From positions 1 to 64,000 of the forward strand of contig JAUWMT010000003.1 in NCBI GenBank assembly GCA_030613025.1: DNA of 64,000 bases. Reading direction: 5' to 3'. The position numbers were made by a program, and so were the translations under genes. Each line of letters starts with the position of its first letter. The stretch's first letter is position 1. Under the pieces are notes generated by a model. It saw only the letters and a list, made by a program, of their open reading frames with translations. It was not told where the DNA came from and did no database searches. Below, in pieces: positions 33,791-56,230 of the stretch. The DNA is from Candidatus Cloacimonadota bacterium (GTDB lineage: Bacteria > Cloacimonadota > Cloacimonadia > JGIOTU-2).

Positions 33791-36700
33791 TCATTTTCTC
33801 AATAAATATTCTTGTGTTCCAATTTTATAAAAATAAATTCCTGAACGAACTTCCTTTCCTTTTTCATCTTTGCAATCCCAAATAATTTCATGAATTTTTA
33901 ACTTTGAATTTTTAATTTTTAATTTTTTCACAAGTTGACCTTTTACATTATAAATACTAATTTGGGATAATTCGAGTGAATTCGTGGTTGCAAAAAAGTG
34001 TATTGTTGTTGAAGTTTTGAAGGGATTTGGATAGTTCCAGGTTTCTAATCCTACATTATTATTCTGGGGGTGAATTGAGACGATAGGAATTTGGTAGGTG
34101 AAGTATTCATCAAAACCGATGTTGCCATCTACGTTTCCTGAGGGAAGTTGCCCAACCAAAGTTCCACTATCACTGGTTTCATATTCACCAATTGCGATAA
34201 AGAAGCTGTCCACTTCTCCAAGCTCAGAATCAATCGAGAAATATCCTTCGAGTACAGTATTGAGTGCTGCTCCAGTAGTTCCTTCATTATCAAACCATGC
34301 ATGGTAGCCGTTCGAACCTTCCTGGGCAAGAAATAGATCCCACTGGGCTACCTGTCCTGCTTTTGCCCACGGTGCTGCGGTCATTTGTGTAAGTTCACTG
34401 GAAATGAGCATAAACAGATCAGTTGTACTTCCTGCAGGGGTGCATGCAACGTAGCACCAATCTTCATCAACTGCTGCCCAGAGCTCGATTTCTGAGGAAA
34501 AAGCAACAAGCTCTGCCTGAGCATCGACAACGCCGTTCATAATAAAAGGAACACTTGCTCCTTGCACCTGCACATGCCAGTCCTGCCCATTGTTATTATC
34601 CCAGTTGCCCTGTCCGTCATGGAAACAGAAATCAACTACTGTAGTACCGCTTTCAATTGTGAAGGTAAACACCCAAACTGAATCCTGCGCATTGAAGGTC
34701 ATTGCAAAATCATCCACATTCTGCCAGCAATTCATACCTTTATGAATTTGTAATTGAGTCACATCATACAAAGGTCCTTCCGCTCCATAGGTAATGTTGA
34801 GCTCATCTCCGACTTCCGACTCTTCCGGACTCCACTGTACATAGTCCTGCACAGAGACACCGCCTGAACCAACATATACATGCTGGATCGGAGACTTCTT
34901 CACATTGCTATGGTTGTCTTCAGCTTGGACATAATAATCAATCAAACAGTCTGAATACCCTGCAATTTCTGCATAGTATTCATCAGCAATATAGTCCGGA
35001 AGTACAAAGAAATCAATTGCAGGATTGCCTGTTACATTACCTGTGGGAAAATCTCTCACAGACATTATTATTGAATTCCACGAGCCCACTTCCGAACCGC
35101 CTGCATAGGTTTCATTATCATAAGAAGTTAGAGAATTTTCTCCGTCATTATCAATACGGAATTTTAATTCAACTGATGAGAGTCCGGACACATCATACAC
35201 AAAAGTCCATACATGGAAATCGCTTGAATTTTGATGAGTTTGATAGCCATATATCGGACCAAAACCTTCTCCGCCGGGATTGTAAGGAAATCTTTGAGGA
35301 ATGAAAATTGTGGGTGCAACATCGTCTTCACCCGGATTGGCATCAATTTCATAATCTGCATACTCTACTGCGTTGTTGCATGCAATGGTCTGCTTCACTT
35401 CCATATCCAGCGAAGTGCCGTAATACATATATCCACTTGTAAGAGAAGGCAGGAAGAAATGCCATGCCAGTTCTGCATTATTTGCACTTGCATTCGGATA
35501 CACGATCTTGCTAATATCAACTGAGCCAATTAGCTCTTCTGCTGTTTCCACCCTGTTCTGAGCCGCGGTTATCACTGCCCAATTGCGCACATCCTCGGTC
35601 CAACCATAAGGATCGAACCGATAATTTCCATTATACATAGGCCATATCCAGTTTATGAACTGCGGATGCCCCCAATCATTGGCGGCGTTCACCCAGCTTC
35701 CGTCTTCCACATGCACGATGTCGTTTGAAGGAACGGGATTGTTATCAAGAAATTGCTGAACTGTCGAGGGAATGTATCCCTGCGATGCTGCTGCGTTTGC
35801 AAAATTCGGCACTGAATTCATATAGTAATCGTATCCGCCACCCCATGCATTATCGCCGTCATGTGCAAGGAGTACGATGCTCGGATGTGAAGGGTCATTA
35901 TAGGGTGCAATATGAGAATCGATCTCGCCGGTTCCCATTGAAGAATAGCCGTTCATATAGCTGAGAAGATCGCACATAGGCACGACATTGATAGTATATA
36001 CCTGTTCGGTTTCAGGATCGACATACTGAGCTTTGTGTGCCTGATAACAGAATGGTGCAGCAAAAGTGCCACCTCTGCCATCGATCTGACCACTCCACCA
36101 ATTGCTTCCGACAGGTCCGAGAATATCTGCCGGATTGGGTGGATCAATATTACATCCCGAAGTTCCATAACTAAGCGGGTAATCCTGGCAAGTCCGTGCA
36201 AGATGGCTGTTCGCGATAACCGACCATTCGAGTCCTTCCTCCGCAAGCGTTTGAATAATTCTCTCAGAGAAAGAGCATTCTGCAGGCCAGAATCCTTTTG
36301 AATATACCGGGTCATTTCCGAAGAATTGTGAGTAAATATAGCGGTGAGCTTGAATTTCTTTATGCAGTGCGTTCTCATCGATGAGCGGTGCAAGTGCATG
36401 ATGAAAGGTGAAGGCAGTAATATCCATTCGAGGATTCCCGCCTGATGTCTGCCATGAACGAGCAGTCTGGAAATTGCCCTGCCATCCGGAGTTGTATCCC
36501 CATTGGACGGCTTCTGCCAAACTTTGCACATTTTCAATAAGGCAGCCGGAATAGTTCACTTGTGCTCCTGCGTCTGCATGGACGAGGAGGGTTTGCACTG
36601 CGTCTTTTGGGCGCCATTGATACGCGGCAACTCTGTCATCCTTGTTGAATATATCCTCAAGATCATTCAAGGGATGCTGAAGCCCGTCGGAATACCAGTT

Positions 36701-36883
36701 GCCATTGTTCTGCTTTAGCCATTGGGACTCCCGGCAGGTTTGGTAACGGTACGTATTCCATGTGCCTTTGTCGGGCCAGTAGATCGGTTGCTGAAGGTGC
36801 CATAGATAGGTAGTATGTACCGGAGCGGATACCCCGGTGTTTGATATAATGAGCAGCAGTACAAAGAGAATCGTTTTTTTCAT
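33791..36883 (-). CDS. Exported GH57-type alpha-glucan hydrolase with sorting domain
   Basis: The 1030-residue protein has a signal peptide (to about VSAPVH) and a GH57 catalytic domain: motif 1 YLWHLQQP (residues 26-33), the nucleophile motif GFWPAECSFS (Glu 202) and the acid motif LLAHDGDNAW (Asp 342/344). GH57 enzymes cleave or branch alpha-glucans and most known ones are cytoplasmic. The middle part (about 545-850) carries beta-sandwich modules (VQDYVQWSPEESEVGDELNI and a CBM25-like WDNNNGQDWHV). The C-terminus is a sorting domain (NYPNPFKTSTTIHFF, IYNVKGQLVKKLKI, WDCKDEKGKE, SGIYFYKIGT). It likely works on the cell surface. A GAGAGGATT site precedes the ATG. Confidence 0.82.
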   Translation of the reverse strand: MKKTILFVLLLIISNTGVSAPVHTTYLWHLQQPIYWPDKGTWNTYRYQTCRESQWLKQNNGNWYSDGLQHPLNDLEDIFNKDDRVAAYQWRPKDAVQTLLVHADAGAQVNYSGCLIENVQSLAEAVQWGYNSGWQGNFQTARSWQTSGGNPRMDITAFTFHHALAPLIDENALHKEIQAHRYIYSQFFGNDPVYSKGFWPAECSFSERIIQTLAEEGLEWSVIANSHLARTCQDYPLSYGTSGCNIDPPNPADILGPVGSNWWSGQIDGRGGTFAAPFCYQAHKAQYVDPETEQVYTINVVPMCDLLSYMNGYSSMGTGEIDSHIAPYNDPSHPSIVLLAHDGDNAWGGGYDYYMNSVPNFANAAASQGYIPSTVQQFLDNNPVPSNDIVHVEDGSWVNAANDWGHPQFINWIWPMYNGNYRFDPYGWTEDVRNWAVITAAQNRVETAEELIGSVDISKIVYPNASANNAELAWHFFLPSLTSGYMYYGTSLDMEVKQTIACNNAVEYADYEIDANPGEDDVAPTIFIPQRFPYNPGGEGFGPIYGYQTHQNSSDFHVWTFVYDVSGLSSVELKFRIDNDGENSLTSYDNETYAGGSEVGSWNSIIMSVRDFPTGNVTGNPAIDFFVLPDYIADEYYAEIAGYSDCLIDYYVQAEDNHSNVKKSPIQHVYVGSGGVSVQDYVQWSPEESEVGDELNITYGAEGPLYDVTQLQIHKGMNCWQNVDDFAMTFNAQDSVWVFTFTIESGTTVVDFCFHDGQGNWDNNNGQDWHVQVQGASVPFIMNGVVDAQAELVAFSSEIELWAAVDEDWCYVACTPAGSTTDLFMLISSELTQMTAAPWAKAGQVAQWDLFLAQEGSNGYHAWFDNEGTTGAALNTVLEGYFSIDSELGEVDSFFIAIGEYETSDSGTLVGQLPSGNVDGNIGFDEYFTYQIPIVSIHPQNNNVGLETWNYPNPFKTSTTIHFFATTNSLELSQISIYNVKGQLVKKLKIKNSKLKIHEIIWDCKDEKGKEVRSGIYFYKIGTQEYLLRK

Positions 36884-36996: not shown

Positions 36997-38376
36997 TCAG
37001 TCGATCATTAATTTTTTGGTTTCTTGATAATCTTCGGTCTTGAGCTGATAGAAATAAATACCGCGTCCAAAATTCTCAGTATTCCATTCAACTGTGTAAT
37101 TATTCACCACACGATCATCATTGACCACTTCTGCCACACGCTGTCCAAGCACATTATAAATATTCAACTGCACAGGACGAACTGTTCCTTCCATTCCGCC
37201 AAGACAGAAATTGAATGTGACAGACTGTCCCATTCTTGCAGGATTCGGAAAACTTGGAAGCAAGTTTGAGTTTATAATATTCATCTCACCATTCTGATCA
37301 ACATCGATAGGTGTAAACTCGATCGAGCCGTAAAGATCATTCGTTCCACCAAAGTTCACCACTTCAAGCCAGTAATAGTAGGTTGTATAATAAGGATCAG
37401 CACTGAGATCAGTAAATTCGTATGTATGAGGAGTGGTAGTGGTTCCATGTCCGGGGATAATGGAAGTATTTACTTTTTGAACAGTTGAGAAATCATCCTC
37501 TTCGGAACGGAAAATGTTATAGCCAATAACATCTGTCTCTGTAGCGGTCTGCCATGAAACAGTTACAAATTCATTCACATATACTGCAGTGAATGCAGAA
37601 AGTTCGACAGGAAGAGTGTAATATGATGAATGATATGGACCGCCACTCAAAGTTGAATAATCGGGATTATTACCAAGATCTCCTGAAGGAGGGGTACCTG
37701 GTGCACAATCCTGACAGAACCATCCAGTATTACTGACAACCATTCCAAAAGCAGCCAATGTTCCAGATGAAGTAACACCTAACTCAGCAAAAGGAATTGC
37801 AAACTCAACACCATGATCTCCGGTGTTATCATTATTTACAGCAAAGGCAACTGAATTTTCACTAAATATACCAGCAGGAGATGGTCCAGTAGCTGACGTA
37901 CCAACCTGATCACATGTGCCGATGTATGATGGAAACCCTACACCTGCATTAAATACTAATGCATCAAAATAAACATTTGTTGCTCCACCTCCAGTATTCC
38001 AGGCAAACATATAGTCTACTTCAAAATCTGCTTTATAATCATTATTACCAGTATCACCCATATAACTACCTGCACTGGCTGTTCCTCCAAGAGAAGTTCC
38101 TGCGGGCATTCCAGTTAATTGGTTGAATCCAAGCCATAAACCAAAAGCATTAGAACTACCTGTACAAAGATTGCCAACTAAACCAATGTACAATACATTA
38201 GCTACTACGTCAGGATAATAAACAATTTTATCAATGTTCATACCCCAAGTACCTAATCCATTTCCCGTAGCTATTTGCACATATTCAGCATCGCTCATAT
38301 CGCCATCGATTGTTGGTGCTCCATATGCAAATGAAGCAATGAATAATAACACAACTAAAACACTAATTTTTTTCAT
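36997..38376 (-). CDS. Secreted IDG-domain protein with sorting domain
   Basis: The 459-residue protein has a signal peptide (MKKISVLVVLLFIASFAYG), an N-terminal IDG-type module (APTIDGDMSDAEY, VLYIGLVGNL) and YTLPVELSAFTAVYVN leading to an Fn3-like part (VSWQTATETDVIGYNIFRS). The C-terminal sorting domain is clear (FPNPARMGQSVTFNF, IYNVLGQRVAEVV, VEWNTENFGRGIYFYQLKT). It is a paralogue of the broken gene at 32365, sharing the VELSxFTA linker. It probably binds carbohydrate at the surface. An AAGGAGAATTAAG site precedes the ATG. Confidence 0.75.
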   Translation of the reverse strand: MKKISVLVVLLFIASFAYGAPTIDGDMSDAEYVQIATGNGLGTWGMNIDKIVYYPDVVANVLYIGLVGNLCTGSSNAFGLWLGFNQLTGMPAGTSLGGTASAGSYMGDTGNNDYKADFEVDYMFAWNTGGGATNVYFDALVFNAGVGFPSYIGTCDQVGTSATGPSPAGIFSENSVAFAVNNDNTGDHGVEFAIPFAELGVTSSGTLAAFGMVVSNTGWFCQDCAPGTPPSGDLGNNPDYSTLSGGPYHSSYYTLPVELSAFTAVYVNEFVTVSWQTATETDVIGYNIFRSEEDDFSTVQKVNTSIIPGHGTTTTPHTYEFTDLSADPYYTTYYYWLEVVNFGGTNDLYGSIEFTPIDVDQNGEMNIINSNLLPSFPNPARMGQSVTFNFCLGGMEGTVRPVQLNIYNVLGQRVAEVVNDDRVVNNYTVEWNTENFGRGIYFYQLKTEDYQETKKLMID

Positions 38377-38477: not shown

Positions 38478-41400
38478 TTATTTATGTAAATACACTACCT
38501 TCTCGGTACAATATTCTGAAGAAGTGGAAAGTTGAATGAGATATACACCGGAAGTTATTTTTCTGCCCATAAGATCGCAACCGTTCCAGGTAAGTGAATG
38601 TGATCCCTGTCTGAGTTCATTTTCTACCAGAGTACTTATTCTCTGTCCTTTTATATTAAATATTTCAATACTTACTTTTGAGGGCTGGCGCACATAGTAA
38701 CCGATAACGAGCTGTTCATAGAATGGTGAGGGATGTGGAGATGAAAGGGTAAGATTGACTTCCTCTTGAGGATACTCCGACTCATCGACCGACACGCCTG
38801 CAACTTCCGCCCAGACGAAATTTTGTGACATATCATAATGAAAATATACATCGCTGTTCGCAATCAGACTCAAAAAGAGATTTTCCCCTGTAGTATTTTG
38901 ATCCCAGTTGTTATTGAGCACGATCTTGTATTCATATTCACCTGATGGGATCGCACCAAAGAAAGTGTAGATGCCATCAAAGGCAGCAGCATCACCATCA
39001 ATACCCTCATCGTTCATTTGTGTAAGAGTGGTTTCCTGATTCCAGTCAATCCCACCGATCTCAGAGAGAAAATCTCCTACAACCAGAGGAGGATTAGGAC
39101 TATGAAAAACATACTCGTCATAATTCTTTTCTCCCACCATAATACCACAGTTCGCATAGATGGTTACCACGGAAGCATCTCCAAGGACAAAGGATTGATT
39201 TTCGCCGGGCCAGTCATTGCCATCCCAGCTATTGCTTTCTATGACTTTATAATTGTATGAACCTGCAGGAAGCGACAGAACCGCCTGCCACACACCATTA
39301 TCCATGAGCATCAGATCGTAATCATGATTGCTAGGAGTCCAGCTATTCATACTGCCAACAATATGGGGAATGATTATTTCTGTGACTGTGGCAGTATCAT
39401 AATCTGGATCAATGACATTGCCATGCAGATCTTCTATATTTGACACAACCACGTCGCCAAAATCTCCAGTCAGGAAGGTTTCATTTATTGTGATTGTAAC
39501 TTTTCTAATATGTGACAGCTTTATATTATCAATTGAATAGGAACCCGTGAAATTTTCAAATGAGTAATTGGCTACATTGACTGCACTTGTTTCTTCGACT
39601 GGTTCGTTATATATGATTTGCAACTTATTATCGCTTACAAGGTATGCTTCTCCATTCACGATGCGCGGAGCATAGGTATCCTGAAGCTCATCAGCAAGGT
39701 CGTCCAGTTCAACTACTTTATTATTATTAACATCATATGGCTCGCTCGTAAATCCTGCAAACAGGTATATCACAAAGCTGCCCTGCCCTCTTATTTCATC
39801 ACCTTTAACAAGGGTGCCTTCAAACTCAGTATTGAATTCTGCGCCAGCATCTCCGAGAACTATCGCAGCAGTTGCGCCTGATGAGGAATTTCTCTGTCCG
39901 CAGTATTCACCCCAGTCACCCCACATTCTCTGCAGATTGGATTTTCCTGACCATATCAGATCGAGCAGATCGGGCGACCAGCCGGATTTTATATATCCTG
40001 TTTCGTAGCCAAAATTGTACTCAACTGTTAGATGTGAATCACCAGTTTGAAGAGAAACAACTTTGCTTACTTCATTCTTCATCAATGTCGCCTGCACGCT
40101 ATCACCAGTTCCTGTATTCACAACCATTGCATAGAGATCATGCTGATAATTTGGAGAGACTTCGGACAGTGCTGCAACGTGATTATTCGAACTTTCATTA
40201 TAATCACCGTCAGTTTCAGACCAATATGCCACATCCGAGCCGACGATAGAATAACAATTGCCGTAACCATCTTTGACGAAGATCCAGTTTGCCTTTCCAC
40301 CTATAGTTTCGAACACATAAAATGCCACATCATTATACATGATAAGCTCGTCAACACCATCCCGATCTATATCAGACAAATAGGATGCAGTGGTTTCTGT
40401 GTAGTCGCCATTCGCCCATCTGGATGCTTCTGCATAGACATTTGCATTTTTCATGTGAGCTGAGTAACGGTGTTCCCAATCAGCTATCTCACCGCTTGTA
40501 TGCCAGCCGGTTTCATGAAGATTTATCATAAGCGTGTACCAGGCAAGTTGAGAAAGTCCGTTATCGGGACATGTTATGATATTGTTATATACATCATTCC
40601 ATACATACCCGTAGGTCCATTTTGGCGAATGATAATCCGAATGAGATTCAGCAGCAGCCCAATTTATATACCAACTGTTATTACTTCCTCCGTAACCGTC
40701 GCCACCGCCAAGGAGTCCATAGGTGCCTGGGGTAATATCAAAGCTAATTCCATTGAAGTCAGTATTTGCCAATGCGTCATCGAGCTTCCATACATTGATT
40801 GCATTATCATGGCAGTACCAGAGTACGCTTTCATAATTATCCAGAAAGAAGGTATTATGATGCTCGTTCATTTCAGCTGCAACTTCCCAGTCCGTTCCGT
40901 ACACAGCAAGTTCGTACTGCCCCTGGGAGCTGATATAATTCTTTGCACCATTAGCATCATAGTGCATTTTGCCGACGAATTCATTATCAATTGGAATTAC
41001 GCGCAAGTTAATGCTGCTTCCACTACTCATCCAATGAATTTTATTTTTATTAACATTCCAGCAGTGTGGACTGTCATCGAGAATAACTGCATCGACATCG
41101 TACTGTTCCCAGTTATCTCCAAGCCAGTCGATCACACCTGCTTCGGGATATTGTCCGGGATTGAGCCATACACGTTCGGGAATCCAGGCAACATGCGGAA
41201 TATAATTATAGCGGTAATCTACCATATCGCATTCGATATTCACTGACCAGTTATTCATATCATTCTGCATAAAAGGCATAATGTGCTGTCCGAGCGCTGA
41301 GGTAAGCATTGCCACCCATCCTTCTGAAGCGCCGGTTTCCAACCAGTCATTGAATTCCGGATTATGCCATTCCGCAGCAGGCATGAGTGTTCCGGACATG

Positions 41401-42065
41401 TGAAAATTGCCGGGAATATTTGTCGCCTCATGCACTTCGAGCACTTCGTCAAAACCACTTGTTTCCTGGGGATCCTGTCCGTAAAAGACTTCAGTATAGG
41501 TCAATCCCTGATTGCCGTGATGTACAAAAGCACAGTTACCTCCACGATACTGAGTGTTTCCTTTACTGATAAAACTATCTACAAGAATATCATCAATAAG
41601 AATATCAACTTTGTAGGTGAGCTGCTCTTTGGAAAATTTATGTATGAAGGGTGTTGAGCACTCTGCCAAATTGAATGTGGGTGTTCGAAGTATCTTTTCA
41701 CCTCCGGTTTTCTCAAGAAGAGATTTCAGGGGAAATGTATGCTGACAGATTACCTTATTCTCTTTACCTGCAAACAAACTTATTCTTGCAAAAATATCCT
41801 TATCCAAAAAATTATCTTTTACTACCTGATTGTGCGAGCGCTGTACCATATCATCAAAAGTGATGCGTATAAAGAGAATTTCATTTTCGATACGGGAAAA
41901 AACAGAAGTTATATCTCCGCAGGATGCTGCACAGTCACCGACTTCATCAAAGCCGATAAAATCTTCTTTTTGCCAGACGGAAACATCTCCGGTTATGTCA
42001 AATGCGTATGCATTGATGGCGACAAGAAGAAAAACCATCAACACTGCTGATAATTTTCTATTCAT
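38478..42065 (-). CDS. Large exported GH57-like glycosidase with E-set and sorting domains
   Basis: The 1195-residue protein has a signal peptide (MNRKLSAVLMVFLLVAINAYA). The catalytic part (about residues 180-500) shows GH57 features: FVHHGNQGLTYTEVFYG, FHMSGTLMPAAEW, HVAWIPERVWLNPGQYPE (the WxPER nucleophile motif) and an acidic YGTDWEVAAEMNEHH. It resembles glucoamylase/pullulanase-type GH57 more than the gene at 33791. A glycogen-binding E-set-like module (GSMNSWTPSNHDYDLMLMDN, GSYNYKVIESNSWDGNDWPG; about 905-980) and a second (WNQETTLTQMNDEGIDGD) follow. It ends in a sorting domain (FNIKGQRISTLVENEL, SGVYLIQLSTSS). It is the largest enzyme of the locus. Confidence 0.75.
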   Translation of the reverse strand: MNRKLSAVLMVFLLVAINAYAFDITGDVSVWQKEDFIGFDEVGDCAASCGDITSVFSRIENEILFIRITFDDMVQRSHNQVVKDNFLDKDIFARISLFAGKENKVICQHTFPLKSLLEKTGGEKILRTPTFNLAECSTPFIHKFSKEQLTYKVDILIDDILVDSFISKGNTQYRGGNCAFVHHGNQGLTYTEVFYGQDPQETSGFDEVLEVHEATNIPGNFHMSGTLMPAAEWHNPEFNDWLETGASEGWVAMLTSALGQHIMPFMQNDMNNWSVNIECDMVDYRYNYIPHVAWIPERVWLNPGQYPEAGVIDWLGDNWEQYDVDAVILDDSPHCWNVNKNKIHWMSSGSSINLRVIPIDNEFVGKMHYDANGAKNYISSQGQYELAVYGTDWEVAAEMNEHHNTFFLDNYESVLWYCHDNAINVWKLDDALANTDFNGISFDITPGTYGLLGGGDGYGGSNNSWYINWAAAESHSDYHSPKWTYGYVWNDVYNNIITCPDNGLSQLAWYTLMINLHETGWHTSGEIADWEHRYSAHMKNANVYAEASRWANGDYTETTASYLSDIDRDGVDELIMYNDVAFYVFETIGGKANWIFVKDGYGNCYSIVGSDVAYWSETDGDYNESSNNHVAALSEVSPNYQHDLYAMVVNTGTGDSVQATLMKNEVSKVVSLQTGDSHLTVEYNFGYETGYIKSGWSPDLLDLIWSGKSNLQRMWGDWGEYCGQRNSSSGATAAIVLGDAGAEFNTEFEGTLVKGDEIRGQGSFVIYLFAGFTSEPYDVNNNKVVELDDLADELQDTYAPRIVNGEAYLVSDNKLQIIYNEPVEETSAVNVANYSFENFTGSYSIDNIKLSHIRKVTITINETFLTGDFGDVVVSNIEDLHGNVIDPDYDTATVTEIIIPHIVGSMNSWTPSNHDYDLMLMDNGVWQAVLSLPAGSYNYKVIESNSWDGNDWPGENQSFVLGDASVVTIYANCGIMVGEKNYDEYVFHSPNPPLVVGDFLSEIGGIDWNQETTLTQMNDEGIDGDAAAFDGIYTFFGAIPSGEYEYKIVLNNNWDQNTTGENLFLSLIANSDVYFHYDMSQNFVWAEVAGVSVDESEYPQEEVNLTLSSPHPSPFYEQLVIGYYVRQPSKVSIEIFNIKGQRISTLVENELRQGSHSLTWNGCDLMGRKITSGVYLIQLSTSSEYCTEKVVYLHK

Positions 42066-42090: not shown

Positions 42091-45009
42091 CTATTTCAAG
42101 ATCGCTCCGCTCATTGCCTGAAGAGTGATCTCTACTTCACCTTTGTTGATCTGATAAGATATATCATTCAAAAGATTTATTACTGATTTCTGACCTTCAT
42201 TGAAGGGAATCTTCACTGTATGAGCTTGTGTGTCATTATTGATCACGACTGTGATAGCACACTCATCATCACTTCTCTTATAAGCATAGACCATACCGTT
42301 AGTGAGCACTGTATGGAAATCACCGGTTCGAAGGCAGGAGAATTTTTTCCTGATTTGAATAAGCTTTTTATACCAGTCGCGCAAAGCAACCTTTTCTTTG
42401 TCTTTAGTATATTTCCAGTTCATTGGACGACGGCAGTCAGGATCATGTGCTCCCATCATACCGATCTCGTCGCCATACCAGATATGAGGAGCACCGACAT
42501 AGGTCATCGAGAACAGCATTGTGATTTTAAGTTTGTCAGTATCCCCTTTGATGGATTCAAGATATCGGAAGGTATCATGACTGTCTATGAGGTTCATCAT
42601 ACATTGCACTGCTTGAGTAGGATAGGCAAGCAATCCCTGTTTGATGTCTCTGTCAAAGGTCTTTGCACTGCAGCTTCTCATTGCAAAGAAACGCATCACA
42701 GGATCTTTAAAGAATGCATAGTTCATGACCGCATCAAAATAATGACTATTTACCCAATCGGTTGCATTGCCCCAGATCTCACCAACGAGATAGGCATCCG
42801 GTTTGATAGACTTCACCTTATCTCGGAAAAGCTCCCAGAACCAAAAAGGTACTTCATTAGGCACATCAAGACGGAAGCCGTCGCAATCCATATCCTTGAT
42901 CCAATATTCTGCTACATCGAGAACATAATTCACCACATCCCAGTTAGGGTCTGCATCATTGATATTCTTTATACTGTTCTCAGCAGGATTGGGCAGTGTG
43001 AGATCCCAGTTAAGGTCAGGCATTTCACCCACTCCCCACCAGCATTCATAATAATCTGATGGATTATATTTTGCTGGGATCGGATCCGGCAGAGGCCATT
43101 TCTTTATCTCATACCAGTGCCAGTACGGTGAATCCGGTCCTTTCTCCAGCGCATCTTGAAATGCCCAGAAAGTCTCACCTGTATGATTAAAAGCACAGTC
43201 AATAATAATATGAATCCCGTGTTCGTGAGCTACCTTTACAAATTCTTTGAATTCCTCGGCTGTACCAAAATGCGGATCGAGTTTCATATAATCAACTGCG
43301 TCATATTTATGATTGGATTTCGCTTCAAAAAGCGGGTTGAAATAAATCACAGTAATTCCAAGATCTTCCAGATAATTGAGTTTTTGACGAATACCGTTAA
43401 TGTCGCCGCCATAGAAAGACCACCAGTCCGGTTTGCCGTCATGCCTGTATGGATTGCTCTTCAAGCTTGAGATATCATACCAGTCTTCGACCAGATGAAA
43501 ATACTGTTTGTTTGAGGGTAATTTCTTTCCCGGCGCAGGTGGCTGGTTAACACCTTCATAATACCATTCTGTAAAATCCTGATCATTTGATTTGTCGCCA
43601 TTATAAAATCTGTCACAGAATATCTGGTAAATAATGCCGTTCTTTACCCACTCCGGCGTGAAGAAGGGTTCGACTGATTCCTTTGAATAATGGAAAACCA
43701 TATCTTCATCAAAGTTCTCTGTCAGTGCGCCATTAAGAAGGTAATATTCCTTTCCACCATCAATATATATGAAATAATAATCAAATTCATCTTCAGGTGA
43801 ATTTAGTTCTATTATTTTATGATAATAATCAAATGTATCGTCTGCATCCACAAAATCCAATTCGATCTTCTCTCCATCCTTCCAGAGATAGATATTTTCG
43901 AGGTCATTTCTGTGGGCACGAGCTTTGAATTCTATTTTTGTATCGGATATTGGATTAATCGTTTCCAGCGATTGGCTGGTTGGAATTCCATAAGTCATGA
44001 TGTTTCCATCACTCATTTCAATCTGGACTTTGGAGAAGCGATTGTCCACATCGAGCACGGAATTCTGTCCGCCAAAGCCGTCATCAGCAAAACGGGATGC
44101 GCTCATATCTGTGACCCAGTCCATACCGTTCACCACAAATTTGTACTGATATTCTCCGCCTTTGAGAAGAAGCGTTGTGCTGAAAAGTCCGTCTTCTGCT
44201 TCGTCCATTTTATTGGCTTTTGCATTCCATCCATTAAAGGAACCCGCAAGATATACTTCGGTGACGGCTTCCTTATCGGGTCTAAAAGAAAATTCGACTT
44301 TATAAAGAGCTTCGACATCCTCTTTGTTACCCACGAACACAATGGAATTCTGCCCACCAAGTCCGTCGCCGACAAACTCAGTTGCGTTCTCATCAGTAAC
44401 CCAGTTGCCATCCACAACGAATTTATAGGCATATTTTCCTTTGGGAAGCTGAACTGTGGTTTTGTATATTCCGTTATCTTCTTCAAGTTTTATGTCTTTA
44501 TCTGACCAATTATTGAATTCACCTGCCAGATATACTACATGTTTACCACTGGTGAGTGGTTGATATTCAAAGGTAACAGGGAAGACTCCGCTTTGGGGTT
44601 TCGTTTCTTCTTGAATATAGGTTGTCATTGATTCTTCTCCAATAGTTATTACTGAGTTTTGTCCACCAAATCCGTCATCAGCAGTAGTTGTATTATTGGG
44701 ATCGGGTTTCCATTCCGAACCGTTTATCACAAATTTGTATTGATAGGTTCCGGGTGCAAGATCGAGGGTGACCACCCAGATATCATCCTGTTTTACCATA
44801 GGATCAGCTTTTGGATCCCAGCTATTGAAATCGCCTGCAATATAAACATTGGCTGCGTCAGGTGCTTCATACGAGAAGATTGTTCCGCCTTCTGGTTGGG
44901 TTGTTGTGGCTGTTTGAGGTGGTTTGCCCTCAAAAGAGCCAAAGCCCAGAGTTCCGCATCCTGCAAGAAGCAGTGGAATGATCAGGAGTAAAAAAGAAAT
45001 ACGTTTCAT
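42091..45009 (-). CDS. GH13 alpha-amylase-family lipoprotein with three glycogen-binding domains
   Basis: The 972-residue lipoprotein (LLLAGC, Cys 18) begins with three tandem E-set/CBM48-like domains (about 45-130, 145-225 and 230-325), each with AGDFNSW or AGEFNNW type and ending in DGFGGQNS or DGLGGQNS. A linker domain and a GH13 barrel follow: YQIFCDRFYNGD, YGGDINGIRQKLNYLEDLG, IIIDCAFNHTG, the nucleophile GFRLDVPNE (Asp about 711), the acid YLVGEIWG (Glu about 744) and the stabiliser NLIDSHDTFRY (about 808). The layout fits neopullulanase/cyclomaltodextrinase-type enzymes. Being a lipoprotein, it acts in the envelope, most likely on the surface. A GGAGGTAAATAC site precedes the ATG. Confidence 0.92.
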   Translation of the reverse strand: MKRISFLLLIIPLLLAGCGTLGFGSFEGKPPQTATTTQPEGGTIFSYEAPDAANVYIAGDFNSWDPKADPMVKQDDIWVVTLDLAPGTYQYKFVINGSEWKPDPNNTTTADDGFGGQNSVITIGEESMTTYIQEETKPQSGVFPVTFEYQPLTSGKHVVYLAGEFNNWSDKDIKLEEDNGIYKTTVQLPKGKYAYKFVVDGNWVTDENATEFVGDGLGGQNSIVFVGNKEDVEALYKVEFSFRPDKEAVTEVYLAGSFNGWNAKANKMDEAEDGLFSTTLLLKGGEYQYKFVVNGMDWVTDMSASRFADDGFGGQNSVLDVDNRFSKVQIEMSDGNIMTYGIPTSQSLETINPISDTKIEFKARAHRNDLENIYLWKDGEKIELDFVDADDTFDYYHKIIELNSPEDEFDYYFIYIDGGKEYYLLNGALTENFDEDMVFHYSKESVEPFFTPEWVKNGIIYQIFCDRFYNGDKSNDQDFTEWYYEGVNQPPAPGKKLPSNKQYFHLVEDWYDISSLKSNPYRHDGKPDWWSFYGGDINGIRQKLNYLEDLGITVIYFNPLFEAKSNHKYDAVDYMKLDPHFGTAEEFKEFVKVAHEHGIHIIIDCAFNHTGETFWAFQDALEKGPDSPYWHWYEIKKWPLPDPIPAKYNPSDYYECWWGVGEMPDLNWDLTLPNPAENSIKNINDADPNWDVVNYVLDVAEYWIKDMDCDGFRLDVPNEVPFWFWELFRDKVKSIKPDAYLVGEIWGNATDWVNSHYFDAVMNYAFFKDPVMRFFAMRSCSAKTFDRDIKQGLLAYPTQAVQCMMNLIDSHDTFRYLESIKGDTDKLKITMLFSMTYVGAPHIWYGDEIGMMGAHDPDCRRPMNWKYTKDKEKVALRDWYKKLIQIRKKFSCLRTGDFHTVLTNGMVYAYKRSDDECAITVVINNDTQAHTVKIPFNEGQKSVINLLNDISYQINKGEVEITLQAMSGAILK

Positions 45010-45033
45010 GTATTTACCTCCATTTATATTTTG

Positions 45034-45996
45034 CTAATATTGTCTACTGAAGACTGTCATAAAGGTCATGGGGTTATCCTGCTGGGGGATCGTGTCGTCA
45101 GCAATATATTGGTCACCACCACCACCGATAATAGCTATCAATGCAATCTTTGAGCCGATTGGCACTTCACCATTTTCATAAATTTCAGCAAAAGGAATTG
45201 CCATTTCAATGACCGAAGTATTTACCACAATATTCGCATTAAAAATATGTTGATCGACAGCGTAAGGATCTTCCAGACTCACCACAGCAATTTCATAATT
45301 CAATGACCATCCTGAGTATGCAAGATCTGCTCCAAAGTTTTCTGGCGCTGTCACTGTTTTACGGAGATGGTCACCATACCCACCACCTGTAATAGTTGAG
45401 AAATCATTGATGCCGGTTCCGTCACCGTAATCCTTATCAATATATATATTCACTGCGTTCCCACCAGCATCAAAACCACCATCAACAGCGATATACAAGC
45501 TGTCGTCACTTCGAGCAAGATAGAGATTTTCAAAGTTGTTCGAAGGTCCCCAATTGGAAATGTGTGTGTTTTCATACACAGAATTCCAACTCGGATCGAT
45601 CGTGCCGTCTATGGTAATGACTTTCACTACAATCGTTTTTATCACGACGAGTTCGACAGTATCGATCGTGGTCGTTGAAAAGGCATTGACCTGAATATCG
45701 CTGACTGTGAAATCATCATAATTAGGTGCTGACACATTAAGCTGATAGGTGCCTTCAGAAAGATTGCCTATCTCGAAGAAACCGGTAGTATCTGTTGTTG
45801 ATTCTCCCATTAGTGTAGAAACACCAATTTTATATGCTCGAACAGTTGCGATTATCGTATCGGGGGTTGCTTCTTCGAATTGAATAATTCCCTGAATTAT
45901 TGCGTTATAGCTGAAAGGTGAACCAGTCGGTGTTTTCTCGCATCCAATATAGAACAGTATTGCGAATATTGAAAGTATCAAAATTATCTTTTTCAT
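45034..45996 (-). CDS. Lipoprotein with carboxypeptidase-regulatory and IDG-type domains
   Basis: The 320-residue lipoprotein (FYIGC, Cys 19) has a carboxypeptidase regulatory-like beta-sandwich (AIIQGIIQFEEATPD, GFFEIGNLSEGTYQLNVSAPNY; about 30-115) followed by an IDG-type module (ITIDGTIDPSWNS, NLYLARSDDSLYIAVDGGFD, VNIYIDKDYGDGTG). The second module is related to those in the proteins at 32365, 36997 and 50829 and probably binds glycans. Its place between the GH13 lipoprotein and a small E-set lipoprotein suggests a starch-binding surface lipoprotein. Confidence 0.75.
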   Translation of the reverse strand: MKKIILILSIFAILFYIGCEKTPTGSPFSYNAIIQGIIQFEEATPDTIIATVRAYKIGVSTLMGESTTDTTGFFEIGNLSEGTYQLNVSAPNYDDFTVSDIQVNAFSTTTIDTVELVVIKTIVVKVITIDGTIDPSWNSVYENTHISNWGPSNNFENLYLARSDDSLYIAVDGGFDAGGNAVNIYIDKDYGDGTGINDFSTITGGGYGDHLRKTVTAPENFGADLAYSGWSLNYEIAVVSLEDPYAVDQHIFNANIVVNTSVIEMAIPFAEIYENGEVPIGSKIALIAIIGGGGDQYIADDTIPQQDNPMTFMTVFSRQY

Positions 45997-46010
45997 AAGT
46001 TACCTCAAAA

Positions 46011-46436
46011 TTAATTTATAATAAGGACAGAATTGCTTCCACCGAAACCGTCATCGATCATTTCGAAGGCATTGGGATCTTTCACCCAAGTATTTCTGTC
46101 TAAGACATATTTATATTCATATCTTCCGGGAGAGAGCTGCTTTATGACAGACCAAATTCCGTCTTCGGCAACTCTGTCGCCGTGGGTTCCGTCATCATAC
46201 ATCTTATCAATATTTTCATTGAAAGTTCCTGATGCAGTTGCAGTTCCGCTCCACATGTTATCAGGAAAATTTCCGGAAAGGGTCACAATTCGTGCAGAAG
46301 GGGCTTCAAGTTGGAATAGAACTCCTTCACCGGGAATTCGATGTGGAGCAGGCAGCCGTTTCTTGATAAAGTTCAATGAACAGGCGGATACAAGGATGAA
46401 CGAAAGCAGTATTATGATCAAAATTATTTTTTTCAT
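46011..46436 (-). CDS. Small glycogen-binding E-set lipoprotein
   Basis: The 141-residue lipoprotein (LVSAC, Cys 19) is a single E-set domain: VLFQLEAPSARIVTLSGNFP, DDGTHGDRVAEDGIWS, SPGRYEYKYVLDRNTWVKDP and the signature DDGFGGSNSVL. It has the glycogen-binding fold seen three times in the GH13 lipoprotein and once in the barrel at 46450. It has no catalytic part, so it should be a carbohydrate-binding accessory. Confidence 0.8.
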   Translation of the reverse strand: MKKIILIIILLSFILVSACSLNFIKKRLPAPHRIPGEGVLFQLEAPSARIVTLSGNFPDNMWSGTATASGTFNENIDKMYDDGTHGDRVAEDGIWSVIKQLSPGRYEYKYVLDRNTWVKDPNAFEMIDDGFGGSNSVLIIN

Positions 46437-46449
46437 ATTTTGTCGATCC

Positions 46450-48393
46450 TTAAAATCTCAGCACAGCTTCGATGCCGATACGCTGTTCTTCTGTGAGCGC
46501 TTTCTCGGCTTCACGTATCTTTTCACCGAGTCCTGTGTAACTGTTCTCGAGATAATTATTGAAATTAGCGATATCATTCATAAATTCAAATCTGCCGATC
46601 GGCATAAATTCATCGGTGACATTGCTGAGGGCAATCGGGTTCACGCCCCAGTATAATGAAATATCAATATTTTTCCTCAGGTGATAAGTTAAGCTGGTAA
46701 AGTTGCACCAGAAAACATCCTGCCATTGGCTGAAGTCTGTTTTAACTTGCAGGAAGGGATCATTGTAGATCGGCACACGGAGATCAGAATATAGTGTCCA
46801 TTGTGGTGAAATATCCCATTGGAGGGAAGCAATATTTTCAATCAATTTTGGCTCATATTTAATATCCTGCTGTGCGATCTTGCCCTCGTATCCCACATGG
46901 AATTTCTGACGAAATAGCTCGAAATTATAGCCCAGTAGAATATCCCAATACATAGCTGTTTCGTAACCCATGAGAGTGTATTGCGCATATGGCACATTCG
47001 TATATTTCTGGAACCAGCGTCCATTTCCGTCCGTCTTCTCCATATACACATAATAATCATTCCAGCTTACAAGACTATCAGGAAAATCGGTTTTCCATGA
47101 GCTTGCAGCAACCTTCGCATAAATTTTCTCTGTAGAGAATTCTCCACCGAGTGTAATACGGTTCTTAACTATATCTCTTGCAAACTCAAGTTTATTTCTC
47201 TGATAATGAGCAAAGATTTTCATTGCTGCAGGAAATTTCACTTCCAGTCCCGCAAATATTCTATCACCTTTTGCAAAAGTAGTTTTCAGAGAATCCATAT
47301 TCTCATTATCACTATCCTTAAAATGATAATATTCACCGGAGAAGATGAGTTGCATCGGTCCCTGCCAGCCGGGCTGGTTCATGGAATAGACAACCTGCAT
47401 ATCAAATTCCGAACTTGTATGCTCTTTTGAGGAAGTTGAAGTTTGCGGAAGTTGTGCATGATATTCACCAAATCCGAATCTCAAGGAAGTAGTTTCTGGA
47501 ATAATATCAAAGAGAACTTTTCCTCTGTAGGCATTGATGTCTGTATCATCGTCACCGACATTATCTGCAAATACTGCTTCTGCCTGGAATTGTATAGGGA
47601 TCGCTGTCATTGGAATGGACAACATCGGCAGGTTTGACCATCCATACACACCCATGACATCATATCCGAAATTGTAGTTATTACAGCCGATATTTCCAAC
47701 AAGATGCAGGGGGTCATCAAAGGTAAGGAAGCCGTATTTATCGAATGCCTGCACCAGAAAATATGGTGTATCAAGCTTGAGGTAGCTTCGCTTGAAATTG
47801 AGGTGGGTCTTCCACATATCAACACCTTCAGCAATGTTGTTGATATTCAATACTGTATAGCCCTCAACCTGTGAGTTGAACTTGATCTTCACGCCAAGGT
47901 TGATATCATGCAGGGGCTTATCGAGCATCAATTTGTCGTTGTAATCCTTTTTCTCAAACAGGTTCTTTGAGTATAAACGCCCATCAAAAAGAACTTTAGG
48001 ATTGAGCAGTGTTCTTATTCCTTGCTGCTGCACAGGTTCCTTCCCTGCAACGAGCCCACCTGTTGCATTGACTTCCACTAAAGAGTTCATTCCGCCAAAA
48101 CCGTCATCCTTCTGCTTGGGATTATCCGGGTCTGCATACCAGTTGTCATCCACAACGAATTTGTACATATATGCACCTGAAGAAAGTGGGACAACAATTC
48201 TCCAAACTCCGTCATTACCGAGTTTCATTACATGAGCTGATGTGTTCCAGTCATTGAATTCGCCAGCTACGCTGACCATACCTGCATTCGGTGCTTCATA
48301 AAAGAATTCCACACCTTTTTGGGTTGTTGAGACACCTGCAGATGCCATGCTGACCCAACAAAATATCAATATGAAAAGTATTACTTTTCTCAC
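46450..48393 (-). CDS. Outer-membrane barrel with N-terminal glycogen-binding domain
   Basis: The start is GTG 48393 with AGGAG eight bases upstream. The 647-residue protein has a signal peptide (to about MASAG). An E-set domain (FFYEAPNAGMVSVAGEFNDW, GAYMYKFVVDDNWYADPD, DDGFGGMNSLVEV; about 28-108) is followed by about 530 residues of alternating polar and aromatic strands that end in VLRF, the C-terminal Phe of outer-membrane barrels. This is an unusual pairing: a starch-binding domain fused to a barrel. It could be a dextrin porin that captures its substrate, an inference from layout and neighbours. Confidence 0.7.
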   Translation of the reverse strand: MRKVILFILIFCWVSMASAGVSTTQKGVEFFYEAPNAGMVSVAGEFNDWNTSAHVMKLGNDGVWRIVVPLSSGAYMYKFVVDDNWYADPDNPKQKDDGFGGMNSLVEVNATGGLVAGKEPVQQQGIRTLLNPKVLFDGRLYSKNLFEKKDYNDKLMLDKPLHDINLGVKIKFNSQVEGYTVLNINNIAEGVDMWKTHLNFKRSYLKLDTPYFLVQAFDKYGFLTFDDPLHLVGNIGCNNYNFGYDVMGVYGWSNLPMLSIPMTAIPIQFQAEAVFADNVGDDDTDINAYRGKVLFDIIPETTSLRFGFGEYHAQLPQTSTSSKEHTSSEFDMQVVYSMNQPGWQGPMQLIFSGEYYHFKDSDNENMDSLKTTFAKGDRIFAGLEVKFPAAMKIFAHYQRNKLEFARDIVKNRITLGGEFSTEKIYAKVAASSWKTDFPDSLVSWNDYYVYMEKTDGNGRWFQKYTNVPYAQYTLMGYETAMYWDILLGYNFELFRQKFHVGYEGKIAQQDIKYEPKLIENIASLQWDISPQWTLYSDLRVPIYNDPFLQVKTDFSQWQDVFWCNFTSLTYHLRKNIDISLYWGVNPIALSNVTDEFMPIGRFEFMNDIANFNNYLENSYTGLGEKIREAEKALTEEQRIGIEAVLRF

Positions 48394-48412: not shown

Positions 48413-49942
48413 TTAAAACCATGCTTTGAAAACGACTCTAATTTCATCCTGCATTCTGCCGCCGGACACAAAGCTGTCGTCATTTACAAGTCCATACCCG
48501 CCATACCAGCTTGGACCGTATTGAAGATACAGTTCGGAATTACCGCCAATCCTGTATTGAAGCTCCCCGAAGAAACTCATTCGGGAGCCAACTCTATCAT
48601 TCACGACAAGTCCACGGGCAAAGGCACGCCAGCGGTCAGAGAGATTCACTGCACATTCGATTCCGGCGATCTGTTTTTCCCAGGTTTCACCAATATCTTT
48701 TATTTTGAACTGCGTAAGTAATTTTGCCAAGCGGTTTTCTACTGAAAGCTCAACAAAGAAATCATTATGTTTATATTCTTTACCATGCCAGACTTCATCT
48801 TTTTTATTATAATAAATTTTTCCCTTGAAGCCGTTCACGAATTCGATATATGCTTCTGTATATAGATTTGTGACCGGATCGAGACTGACACCTGTGGAGT
48901 ACACTTCACCTTCTAATTTCTTGCGCTGCCAGTAGTTCAGGGTGAACGTTATAGCTCTTTGGGGAACAAAATAATAGGAATTCACCCAAATGCCATATTC
49001 ATCTGATTTATTCTCACCCATGTAATTTCTGTAGCATTTCCCATAAGTCCAGACTCCCGGATTGATGAACCAGTAGCCAATATTTGGAGTGCCGATTCGA
49101 AACCCGCGAAATTCCATTTTTGCAGCAACATTTCCTTTGAAGAACTCACGCAAACCGCTGATGTAATCTCCATCCTTAAAATATTCGTTGCTCTGATCTC
49201 TGTAATATTTCAGAGTATCTTTTATTTCCTGCTCAGATGGAACACTGGAAAATGCCATCTCAAAATTGATCTGATAATTGCCGATCTCGGCATGCTCGTC
49301 AAAGGCAAAAACTTCATTATAGGAATCCTTATCCCCAATTCCATAGTTCTTACGTTGATAGAACATCCCGGTCCTGAACTTATTCTTGAATAAATTCTGT
49401 CGTAGTCTCACGAGATGGATGTCATCACTATCACCCTGAGAGAAATCTGAAAAGACATAAGTAGCGCTTCCGCCCAAGGGCTCCCACAGGTCAAAACGCA
49501 CTCCCTGCCCGTTGCCATCATTATTGACCGAGCCAGTATTGAGCACGTTCAGCAGAGAGCCATCTGTCCAGTAATGATTATTTTCCCGGGAAAAAAGCAC
49601 AGCATTGAATCCCCTGCCGTTAACTTCCTGCCTGTAGGAAAGATGGGCTTCTGCGAGAATCGCTTCAGCATGGTCGGTCATCTGCCCATGCTCGTTCCAC
49701 TTATCGCCGTAAAATTTCACGTATGCTTCAGAATTTGCTATCGGATTTGCATATAATCTGAATTCCACTCTAAAATCAGGATCCCACACATTCCAATGAA
49801 AGCTGTCGGATTCATATTTCGTTCCGAAAACGCTCTCAAGATACCCTTCCAAACGAATTTGGGCATGAATAGAGAATGAGCAGATTACAAGAAAAATCAC
49901 AACAAATAATATACTTTTTTTCACGTTAGAATACATGTACAT
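48413..49942 (-). CDS. Porin-like outer-membrane protein
   Basis: The 509-residue protein has a signal peptide (about residues 7-27, ending IHAQ) and a mature part rich in alternating aromatic strands (FRVEFRLYANPIANSEAYVKFYG, QINFEMAFSS, FTLNYWQRKKLEG), ending FKAWF with a C-terminal Phe. It contains no plug-like or TonB-box region that I can see. It may be a second barrel of the glucan locus. The start could also be the GTG seven codons later, since the signal proper begins there. Confidence 0.65.
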   Translation of the reverse strand: MYMYSNVKKSILFVVIFLVICSFSIHAQIRLEGYLESVFGTKYESDSFHWNVWDPDFRVEFRLYANPIANSEAYVKFYGDKWNEHGQMTDHAEAILAEAHLSYRQEVNGRGFNAVLFSRENNHYWTDGSLLNVLNTGSVNNDGNGQGVRFDLWEPLGGSATYVFSDFSQGDSDDIHLVRLRQNLFKNKFRTGMFYQRKNYGIGDKDSYNEVFAFDEHAEIGNYQINFEMAFSSVPSEQEIKDTLKYYRDQSNEYFKDGDYISGLREFFKGNVAAKMEFRGFRIGTPNIGYWFINPGVWTYGKCYRNYMGENKSDEYGIWVNSYYFVPQRAITFTLNYWQRKKLEGEVYSTGVSLDPVTNLYTEAYIEFVNGFKGKIYYNKKDEVWHGKEYKHNDFFVELSVENRLAKLLTQFKIKDIGETWEKQIAGIECAVNLSDRWRAFARGLVVNDRVGSRMSFFGELQYRIGGNSELYLQYGPSWYGGYGLVNDDSFVSGGRMQDEIRVVFKAWF

Positions 49943-49947
49943 TTATC

Positions 49948-50829
49948 CTATTTGAATTGAATCCCAAAGGAAAGGCGGTAGGTACTACCAAGCTCCTCGT
50001 GTGAATACACCGCTCCATCGAGGGTCCAATTTTTCGCTTTTATGCCGAAGCCGATCGTTAAATAATCTCTGTTCAATCCCATTCTCGGAGCAAACACGTC
50101 AAAGAACCAGATCTCCCATCCAAAATGAAGACTGCTCTCGTCTTTATCCCAGTTATAGTCCAGCAGGAAATTTACTACATCCCGCCATTTATAATGAGCA
50201 CCAAGAGCAAAGTTTTTTTTGATCTTCTCGCTTTCAGAAACCAGCGTTATACTTCTTTCGATGAGATTTCGTGCAGTAAATCCAATTGAGAAATTCTTCA
50301 GGGGAGTAGCTATAATGCCCACATCGACATCGAATTTTCCCGGGAGTTTGATACCAAGCACTTTGGTAGAGGGACTTTCAACATCATCATAACCCGGCAC
50401 GCTGACATAGTAATTATCCAAGCTGATACCAAATCTGACAGGGATGTTCTTATACCGGATAATGCTTGCTGCCGAGAGTGCTATCACCTGCTCAGAATAT
50501 TCATCGAGAAGATTTATCTGAGTCCAGCCCATCCCAAGTCGTACTCTTTTCAAAGGAATGGACAGGGCTACCATCTCATTATACAGATCTCCGATACCAT
50601 ACAGATTCTGGTGAGATACCAGAACAGAGTAGCTGCTTATATAAGATAGACCTGCAGGATTCCAGAACACTGCCGAGGGATCATCCGCAAGCCCCACGTA
50701 TGCTTCGCCCAAAGCCATAGGACGAGCACCCCAGTTCATGCCGATGAAATTCGCCTGCAATGAAATTGGAATCAACAACAGAACAATAAAAAATAACCCG
50801 ATACGTTTATTAATACATTTTTTCATCAT
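49948..50829 (-). CDS. PorV/UPF0164-like outer-membrane protein
   Basis: The 293-residue protein has a signal peptide (to about LQANF) and the start-of-barrel motif GARPMALGEAYVGLADDPSAVFWNPAGLS (quoted here only as its parts GARPMALGEAYVGLADD and VFWNPAGLS), typical of the PorV/PorQ/UPF0164 families. In type IX systems PorV-type barrels shuttle cargo to the surface. Here the gene lies among many putative sorting-domain cargoes. Its start codon overlaps the stop of the upstream gene by one base (TAATG). Confidence 0.75.
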   Translation of the reverse strand: MMKKCINKRIGLFFIVLLLIPISLQANFIGMNWGARPMALGEAYVGLADDPSAVFWNPAGLSYISSYSVLVSHQNLYGIGDLYNEMVALSIPLKRVRLGMGWTQINLLDEYSEQVIALSAASIIRYKNIPVRFGISLDNYYVSVPGYDDVESPSTKVLGIKLPGKFDVDVGIIATPLKNFSIGFTARNLIERSITLVSESEKIKKNFALGAHYKWRDVVNFLLDYNWDKDESSLHFGWEIWFFDVFAPRMGLNRDYLTIGFGIKAKNWTLDGAVYSHEELGSTYRLSFGIQFK

Positions 50830-51965
50830 TATTTAATTACCGAAATAGCTTCATTACGGCTGACCTCTTTTGAGTCCGAGACCACTCTCAGGATGTAAAT
50901 GCCAAAGGGAACTTCATTCCCATTCTTATCTTTGCCGTCCCATTCCCAATCCTGATTTTCCGGATCGATCAGCTCAGCATTGCCAACAAATTCTCCACGC
51001 ACATCATATATCTCGACATTGAAAGCGCTGATGCGGTTTAGTGTAAGCTGAAAAGTGAGTTTTTCACCTTTGCTTGACGCAAATACTTTCCCATCCGGGA
51101 ATTTCACTGAAATAACATTAAGTGGAATCTCTTCAAAAGGAGGAGTTTTATTAAAAGTAACCCTCTCTTTTGGACTTATACCAATATCAGGACTTCCGTC
51201 TCCAGTAGAATCAACACATATTTCTAGATAATTATCGAGCACTGAAGTTGAAATACCGTCACTTGGCATTCCTCCGAGATTATTAGGTATGACATCGGGA
51301 CCGCCAAGATTATCCGAACCCGTGGTGATCACTGCGAGCATTTTCAAGTTTGGAAAATCCTTCATTGTGTGAAGCGAGTCATAATAGATCACTTCCCACG
51401 GAATAGCTGCTTCCATTGCTCTGCCAAGATTACCTGTGTTATATGTCGAGTAATCCTCAATCGAGACTTCATCTGCCTGTAATGACGAGCCCTCGCGCAT
51501 TTTCCAGAACTGCGGATTATCATTTGTATCCCAGGTTGCAAGAAAAAAATCAGGATTGGTGCCGTAGAACTTAAACGCTCTCATCCATGTGTTCAGGTTT
51601 AGCATATCCTGAATGCCATAAGAAGGATACACATCAAGATAATAGATCACGTTATTATCCCAGCAGCAGGCATCGATAGCAACATACAGGTAGGTCAGAT
51701 CCCAGGTCAGGTCGATCTGTTTGACGTCGTTATATTCACCCCACCAGGAATCATCGTCCAGCTCCTGAGATTCGGAAAGGGGCTCCTTTATAAAGAGGCG
51801 TTCATCATCCATAAAATCATCACTGAATCCATCAATAATGATCCTGCCACTGAGGTCATCACCTGTGGTGGCATAAATAGAATTCAAAGAAAATGCAAAC
51901 AATATAAGAAAGAAGAGACCCCGATGCAAAAATCGGGATCCCCTTTTAAAATAGTTTTTCATCAT
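50829..51965 (-). CDS. Secreted IDG-domain protein with FlgD-type tail
   Basis: The 378-residue protein has a signal peptide after a basic N-terminal stretch (KNYFKRGSRFLHRG, then LFFLILFAFSLNSIYA). An IDG-type module (IIIDGFSDDFMDDERLFI, IDLTWDLTYLYVAIDACC; about 45-110) is followed by FGTxxDFFLATWDTN-like strands and a FlgD-like tail (FQLTLNRISAFNVEIYDVRGEF, WEWDGKDKNGNEVPFGIYILRV). Part of the N-terminal basic stretch is encoded by a palindromic repeat (51917-51943). It is translationally coupled to the PorV-like gene. Confidence 0.72.
   Translation of the reverse strand: MMKNYFKRGSRFLHRGLFFLILFAFSLNSIYATTGDDLSGRIIIDGFSDDFMDDERLFIKEPLSESQELDDDSWWGEYNDVKQIDLTWDLTYLYVAIDACCWDNNVIYYLDVYPSYGIQDMLNLNTWMRAFKFYGTNPDFFLATWDTNDNPQFWKMREGSSLQADEVSIEDYSTYNTGNLGRAMEAAIPWEVIYYDSLHTMKDFPNLKMLAVITTGSDNLGGPDVIPNNLGGMPSDGISTSVLDNYLEICVDSTGDGSPDIGISPKERVTFNKTPPFEEIPLNVISVKFPDGKVFASSKGEKLTFQLTLNRISAFNVEIYDVRGEFVGNAELIDPENQDWEWDGKDKNGNEVPFGIYILRVVSDSKEVSRNEAISVIK
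51917..51943. repeat. Palindromic repeat inside the signal-peptide codons
   Basis: GGGGATCCCGATTTTTGCATC followed by GGGGTC forms a stem with CCCGAT/ATCGGG arms. It encodes about nine residues (RGSRFLHRG) at the start of the IDG-domain protein, extending the positively charged part of its signal. A near-relative (CCCCGATGTATCGGGG) lies just upstream at 51991-52017. Confidence 0.6.
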
Positions 51966-55600: not shown

Positions 55601-56230
55601 ATTAAAATCATTCGATACACCACTTGTACCATTCTCACCAAAATGTACAAAAATATTTTCATCTGTATAACCATATTTTTCTAATAGAGTACAATATATA
55701 CCAGAAACAGGATTCCATAGACGACCATCATAGAGTCCATCATGCTGACCGATTATTACTGCATATAAATGATCATCAGGATCACGAGTTGGTATTATCG
55801 GGTTTGGATCTTGAGGTATATCCAAAACCTCTGGTCTGGGTGCATAAGAAATCAATTCAAAATCATCTTCAATATTTTTCGGATAGATATTTTTATCGAT
55901 CACCTGATATGCACCGGTCGCTATATCGACAAAAACATAACGACAGGGATGATGCCACATGGCTGATGGGATATCATTTATAAAAAAGACCCAGTTATTA
56001 TCATAAGTAGGAACTAACATTTGACTTTCGTCATTATACATTTCCAATACATCTTGAATACTTATACTTGTGTTTTTTACTTACACATCTACATTTCCAA
56101 TATCATTGGGTAATATCTGATTCAAAACCAAATCTTCTGCATCATTTTTTGTTATCTCTGCATGCAAAGACACAGAAGACACGAATACTAAAAGCACTAA
56201 TAGTGCTATTTTGAATTTTGTTATACTCAT
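52688..56230 (-). pseudogene. Caspase-fold/beta-helix surface protein, in-frame TAA near the N-terminus
   Basis: The open frame starts at 56047, but a signal peptide lies upstream in the same frame: ATG 56230, MSITKFKIALLVLLVFVSSV then SLHAE. One TAA (56081-56083, codon 50) splits them; a CAA to TAA change explains it. The full 1180-residue protein has a caspase/C13-type peptidase (HLYAVIIGQHDG, FIFVATHGFPSGGHS with His about 259, FVLLPCYSGGFID with Cys about 301). A right-handed parallel beta-helix of repeated NNS/NNSxF units (about 470-860) and a sorting domain (NYPNPASLSTTFSF, IYNVKGQLVKTFI, CNGIYFYKL, IMMR) follow. It resembles gingipain-like or clostripain-like surface peptidases by layout only. 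Without the upstream signal the 1119-residue remainder would not be exported. Confidence 0.7.

Follow-up and report, generated by a model that had tools for sequence, protein, structure and literature searches.

In the Sus system of Bacteroides (SusCDEFG), an outer-membrane channel, glucan-binding lipoproteins and a GH13 lipoprotein are encoded in one operon. The glycogen-binding domain of AMPK-beta is an E-set of the CBM48 family (PF16561), in which mutation in one study has shown the importance of W100, K126, W133 and L146 for glycogen binding, and in which a role for N150 is given at second hand, from work cited in another (PMC2642990, PMC4032982). Cargo proteins of the T9SS can be paired with dedicated shuttles, as in Flavobacterium (PMC12618676), and in the phylum Cloacimonadota a cellulosome-like starch complex with GH57, dockerins and scaffoldin has been described for Ca. 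Stygibacter (PMC8542988).

The locus analysed here has something in common with each of these systems. Its E-sets are of the AMPK-beta/CBM48 family and keep the sugar-contact residues, but they are fused to a predicted outer-membrane barrel and to envelope lipoproteins, and Phe or Tyr takes the place of L146. As in Sus, a predicted outer-membrane channel, putative glucan-binding lipoproteins and a GH13 lipoprotein share one operon; unlike in Sus, the predicted channel itself carries a binding module. Among the ten operon genes we found no Pfam match to a TonB-dependent SusC-like barrel with plug domain and none to a SusD-like lipoprotein, so the locus may work in a Sus-like manner yet is not a member of the Sus family. 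A PorV-like gene adjoins a gene for a T9SS-tailed protein, as in the PorV/PorP shuttle and cargo pairs, but here two further predicted barrels of unassigned families and an E-set lipoprotein come after them. With the Ca. Stygibacter complex the locus shares the phylum, secreted GH57 proteins and a proposed attachment to and degradation of starch (PMC8542988), whereas dockerins and scaffoldin were not found in the ten genes scanned.

The window, i.e., the whole stretch of 64,000 nucleotides that was analysed, contains a run of ten minus-strand genes from 51965 down to 33791, with intergenic gaps of -1 to 113 bases. The genes are listed in their order from 51965, each followed by its modules, and the last line gives a nearby gene outside the run:

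50829..51965, minus strand: protein with a T9SS-type C-terminal tail
49948..50829, minus strand: PorV-like (FadL-type, T9SS shuttle family) outer-membrane protein
48413..49942, minus strand: OMP509, second predicted outer-membrane barrel family, C-terminal Phe in 46/46 homologues
46450..48393, minus strand: E-set/outer-membrane-barrel fusion (predicted) of 647 aa, which starts with GTG, has a signal peptide but no lipobox and ends in ...RIGIEAVLRF
48064..48285, minus strand: N-terminal E-set of the fusion (AMPK1_CBM/CBM48-type), with W49, K78, W85, F99 and N103 at the AMPK-beta sugar contacts
46450..48021, minus strand: C-terminal predicted barrel domain of the fusion, ~523 aa, whose family has no counterpart in Pfam or PDB
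46011..46436, minus strand: small lipoprotein with a VSAC lipobox and a single divergent E-set that carries an insertion
46017..46166, minus strand: detected part of the small lipoprotein E-set (profile match)
45034..45996, minus strand: lipoprotein with a CarboxypepD_reg domain and lipobox YIGC, which often follows in the cassette
42091..45009, minus strand: GH13 lipoprotein of 972 aa with lipobox LAGC, three E-sets and a catalytic domain
44632..44880, minus strand: GH13 E-set module 1 (PF16561 match)
44323..44580, minus strand: GH13 E-set module 2, the DGLGGQNS variant (PF16561 match)
44041..44265, minus strand: GH13 E-set module 3 (PF16561 match)
38478..42065, minus strand: GH57-like protein that carries a T9SS tail and two X25 modules of the pullulanase type, which are related to E-sets
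36997..38376, minus strand: T9SS-tailed secreted protein of the same gene run
33791..36883, minus strand: GH57 enzyme with a weak CBM53/CBM25-type match and a T9SS tail
29339..30829, plus strand: GH77 4-alpha-glucanotransferase near the operon, without signal peptide

The catalytic domain of the GH13 lipoprotein is neopullulanase/cyclomaltodextrinase-like and its catalytic-site motifs are intact. C-terminal domains of the T9SS cargo type (Por_Secre_tail, CHU_C or FlgD_ig-like) are present on the products at 33791, 36997, 38478 and 50829, and the source genome contains the T9SS translocon marker SprA_N (115 bits). The PorV-like protein scores below the curated cut-off of its family. The approximately 290 aa that precede the T9SS tail of the 50829-51965 product match no Pfam or PDB family; this part is highly conserved in the cassette-carrying phyla, with many invariant Trp, Asp and Asn residues. 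A short IS110-type transposase frame with the DEDD domain only (31411-31914, minus strand) separates the operon from the GH77 gene.

Five E-sets of the AMPK-beta/CBM48 type are found in the window: three in the GH13 lipoprotein, one in the small lipoprotein and one in the 46450 protein. An earlier note on this DNA had proposed one glycogen-binding module on three envelope proteins, recognized by the signature DGFGGxNS after a YKFV or YKYV strand, and this stands as far as the E-set family and its alpha-glucan contact residues are concerned. The signature occurs where the note placed it in the small lipoprotein (YKYV, then DGFGGSNS at residue 129) and at the N-terminus of the 46450 protein (YKFV, then DGFGGMNS at residue 97). 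The three copies claimed for the GH13 lipoprotein do correspond to three modules, each preceded by YKFV, but only two are exact (DGFGGQNS at residues 112 and 310), the one at residue 215 being the near copy DGLGGQNS. At the DNA level a degenerate pattern for DGFGG has 4 matches in the window, against 0.01 expected. With a curated cut-off of 26.8 bits, the PF16561 (AMPK1_CBM) profile recognizes the GH13 lipoprotein (148 bits, three matches) and the 46450 protein (51 bits); the small lipoprotein, whose module carries an insertion, stays below the threshold at 20.6 bits. Beyond these five modules there is no PF16561 match in the 2.8 Mb source genome. The X25 modules of the GH57-like protein at 38478-42065 bring the predicted glucan-binding proteins of the operon to more than the three that the note had named.

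Are these modules likely to hold a glucan? The barrel E-set can be aligned to the AMPK-beta2 CBM structures 2f15, 2lu3 and 4y0g over the whole sugar site, where its W49, K78, W85, F99 and N103 correspond to W100, K126, W133, L146 and N150 of AMPK-beta. All five modules of the window have Trp, Lys, Trp, Phe/Tyr/Leu and Asn at these positions. Since residues of the DGFGGxNS motif align to AMPK-beta sugar contacts, the signature is the ligand loop itself. The full set of five is kept in 39/50 distinct barrel E-sets and in 46/49 GH13 modules, and several of the shortfalls are gaps in the profile alignment instead of substitutions. We infer from this conservation that the E-sets bind alpha-glucans. 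Alternatively, the barrel E-set could have lost sugar binding and serve as a structural or protein-docking domain in the assembly of an outer-membrane complex, as the related E-sets on branching-enzyme CBM48 domains and on a T9SS plug protein might suggest; the GH13 E-sets, too, resemble the T9SS plug model. Contact residues are missing from a few divergent E-sets of the barrel, and the cassette is kept where no GH13 gene adjoins it. We nevertheless regard a docking role as unlikely, given that most barrel E-sets from five phyla keep both Trp residues as well as Lys, Asn and the aromatic residue, almost to the extent seen in the GH13 modules.

The C-terminal part of the 46450 product, which the earlier note had taken for a barrel, is very probably just that, judging by its signal peptide, its amphipathic strands and its C-terminus of the outer-membrane protein type. 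The product has a signal peptide and no TM helix. Its homologues end in Phe in 56/56 cases, positions -3, -7 and -9 being hydrophobic and those between them mostly not. The domain gives 16 amphipathic-strand peaks (z 6.6 relative to shuffled sequences), compared with z 4.2 for the PorV family and z -0.1 for the GH13 domain as controls. AlphaFold runs on five-sequence alignments, for the full fusion and for the barrel alone, gave pLDDT values of about 20-25 outside the E-set. The profile of the barrel domain has no credible match in Pfam and, outside the E-set, none in PDB; the OMP509 profile likewise has no credible Pfam match and no PDB match, and the two profiles do not match each other. DAGK_acc and DUF3567 were considered as Pfam relatives of the barrel domain or OMP509 and rejected, their scores being at chance level. 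No relatives were found in the viral contigs that were scanned.

To survey the family, genomes were searched with a barrel query from which the E-set had been removed. It is present in 12/125 genomes of Cloacimonadota; the Zixibacteria, Eisenbacteria and WOR-3 groups have it in 8/17, 7/7 and 18/147 genomes, respectively, and one further phylum in 48/80, where some matches are weak. The 396 Bacteroidota genomes gave no convincing barrel, only two weak partial matches (frames of 190-194 aa) that were not counted. Some near-complete genomes of the source genus are without the barrel. In at least two genomes of the genus where it was not detected there is a close GH13 orthologue, in one case on a short contig. 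The earlier note had called the fusion unusual; the survey instead reveals an architecture that is fixed across five phyla or more and not a local oddity, with one or two N-terminal E-sets on the barrel in 55/55 loci from Cloacimonadota, Zixibacteria, Eisenbacteria, WOR-3 and the further phylum. The number of E-sets varies on the barrel, two being found for instance in the orthologues L036 1828-3873 and L038 2597-4876, and likewise on GH13 (1 to 5). In two Eisenbacteria-group loci (L045 and L048) an E-set also occurs at the C-terminus of a ParA/Soj-type ATPase, a cytosolic protein that one would hardly expect to carry a glycogen-binding domain.

The neighbours of the barrel are conserved as well. 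An OMP509-like gene lies upstream in 50/55 loci, mostly adjoining, and an orthologue of the E-set lipoprotein lies downstream in 49/55; several of the missing cases are ends of contigs or loci. PorV-like genes are common near the cassette except in the WOR-3 group, and outside that group T9SS-tailed and PorV-like genes precede the barrels in most loci of sufficient length. This arrangement, the cargo and shuttle gene pairs known from Flavobacterium (PMC12618676) and the presence of a T9SS in the source genome (SprA_N) could mean that the cassette is a T9SS accessory, which anchors or displays the 50829-51965 cargo by way of the PorV-like shuttle, sugar binding merely attaching cells to glucan particles. 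The WOR-3 loci make this quite improbable in our estimation: they keep OMP509, the E-set barrel and the E-set lipoprotein without any PorV-like gene.

GH13 genes are found close to the cassette in 16 loci, including loci from Zixibacteria and the further phylum, so the link to starch is well supported in Cloacimonadota and one further phylum and weaker elsewhere. In the WOR-3 and Eisenbacteria loci examined no GH13 gene adjoins the cassette, and the core may thus serve more than starch use. In the window the link is supported by a GH13 and two GH57-type proteins within the same gene run. From gene content we lean towards reading the operon as one for the utilization of alpha-glucan (starch or glycogen), with a TonB-independent, T9SS-linked outer-membrane complex for capture and uptake at its core. 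The best reading of this predicted core comprises the T9SS-tailed protein, the PorV-like protein, OMP509, the E-set barrel and the E-set lipoprotein.

In such a system, GH57 enzymes exported by the T9SS would cut the polymer at the cell surface, and the resulting glucan chains would enter through one or both barrels with no need for TonB. In outer-membrane barrels with an even number of strands, an N-terminal extension normally faces the periplasm. The barrel E-set is therefore probably periplasmic, where it could hold the chain at the channel's inner mouth together with the E-set lipoprotein. The three-module GH13 lipoprotein would then degrade the chain, and the cytosolic GH77 would complete its processing. 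With the barrel E-set expected in the periplasm and the T9SS-tailed GH57 enzymes outside, the suggestion in the earlier note of one polymer to which enzyme, binding lipoprotein and channel are all attached stays unproven.

The direction of transport could also be the opposite: the barrel might, like PgaA or AlgE, be an export pore, here for an alpha-glucan exopolysaccharide, in which the E-set guides the chain on its way out. Export barrels with N-terminal periplasmic glycan-handling domains are known, and in some phyla the core is found without adjoining hydrolases. However, the operon is without a glucan synthase or branching enzyme and its neighbouring genes encode hydrolases with secretion signals, and we consider export very improbable compared with the uptake that we favour.

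The reading can be widened beyond this operon, though more tentatively and with some doubt on our part, to a polysaccharide-handling complex that is independent of both TonB and Sus, is built on two new barrel families and occurs in at least five mostly uncultured phyla. One of the barrels would always have its own glucan-binding E-set, accompanied by a dedicated E-set lipoprotein and often by a PorV-like protein, and the complex would be essentially absent from Bacteroidota.

The earlier note had a single module reused on three proteins, and the tree of the modules speaks against any recent reuse. Among 164 modules the class of host protein changes 3 times, compared with 77 expected for shuffled labels, and for 161/164 the nearest neighbour from another locus is on the same class of protein. 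The E-sets of the barrel, the lipoprotein and GH13 are thus three separate ancient lineages that travel with their host proteins. Recent local duplication of a module is rejected by the same tree.

In the open-licence full texts we found no description of a CBM48/E-set barrel fusion or of the cassette, and the transport of starch-like polymers across the outer membrane of uncultured Cloacimonadota, Zixibacteria, Eisenbacteria and WOR-3 relatives is undescribed there. A putative channel with its own predicted glucan-binding module, in a conserved gene set, is a concrete and cheaply testable candidate for such transport. The analysis also brings to light two predicted barrel families and one T9SS-tailed family that are absent from Pfam.

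Elsewhere in the window, a frame of 2101 aa (10643-16948, plus strand) has an N-terminal UvrD-type helicase (UvrD-helicase, UvrD_C) and, at its C-terminus, a PD-(D/E)XK nuclease with a cysteine cluster; its product looks like AddA and AddB fused in one chain. The frame at 52688-56047 (minus strand) encodes a secreted C13-type (caspase-like) peptidase with a right-handed beta-helix and a T9SS tail.
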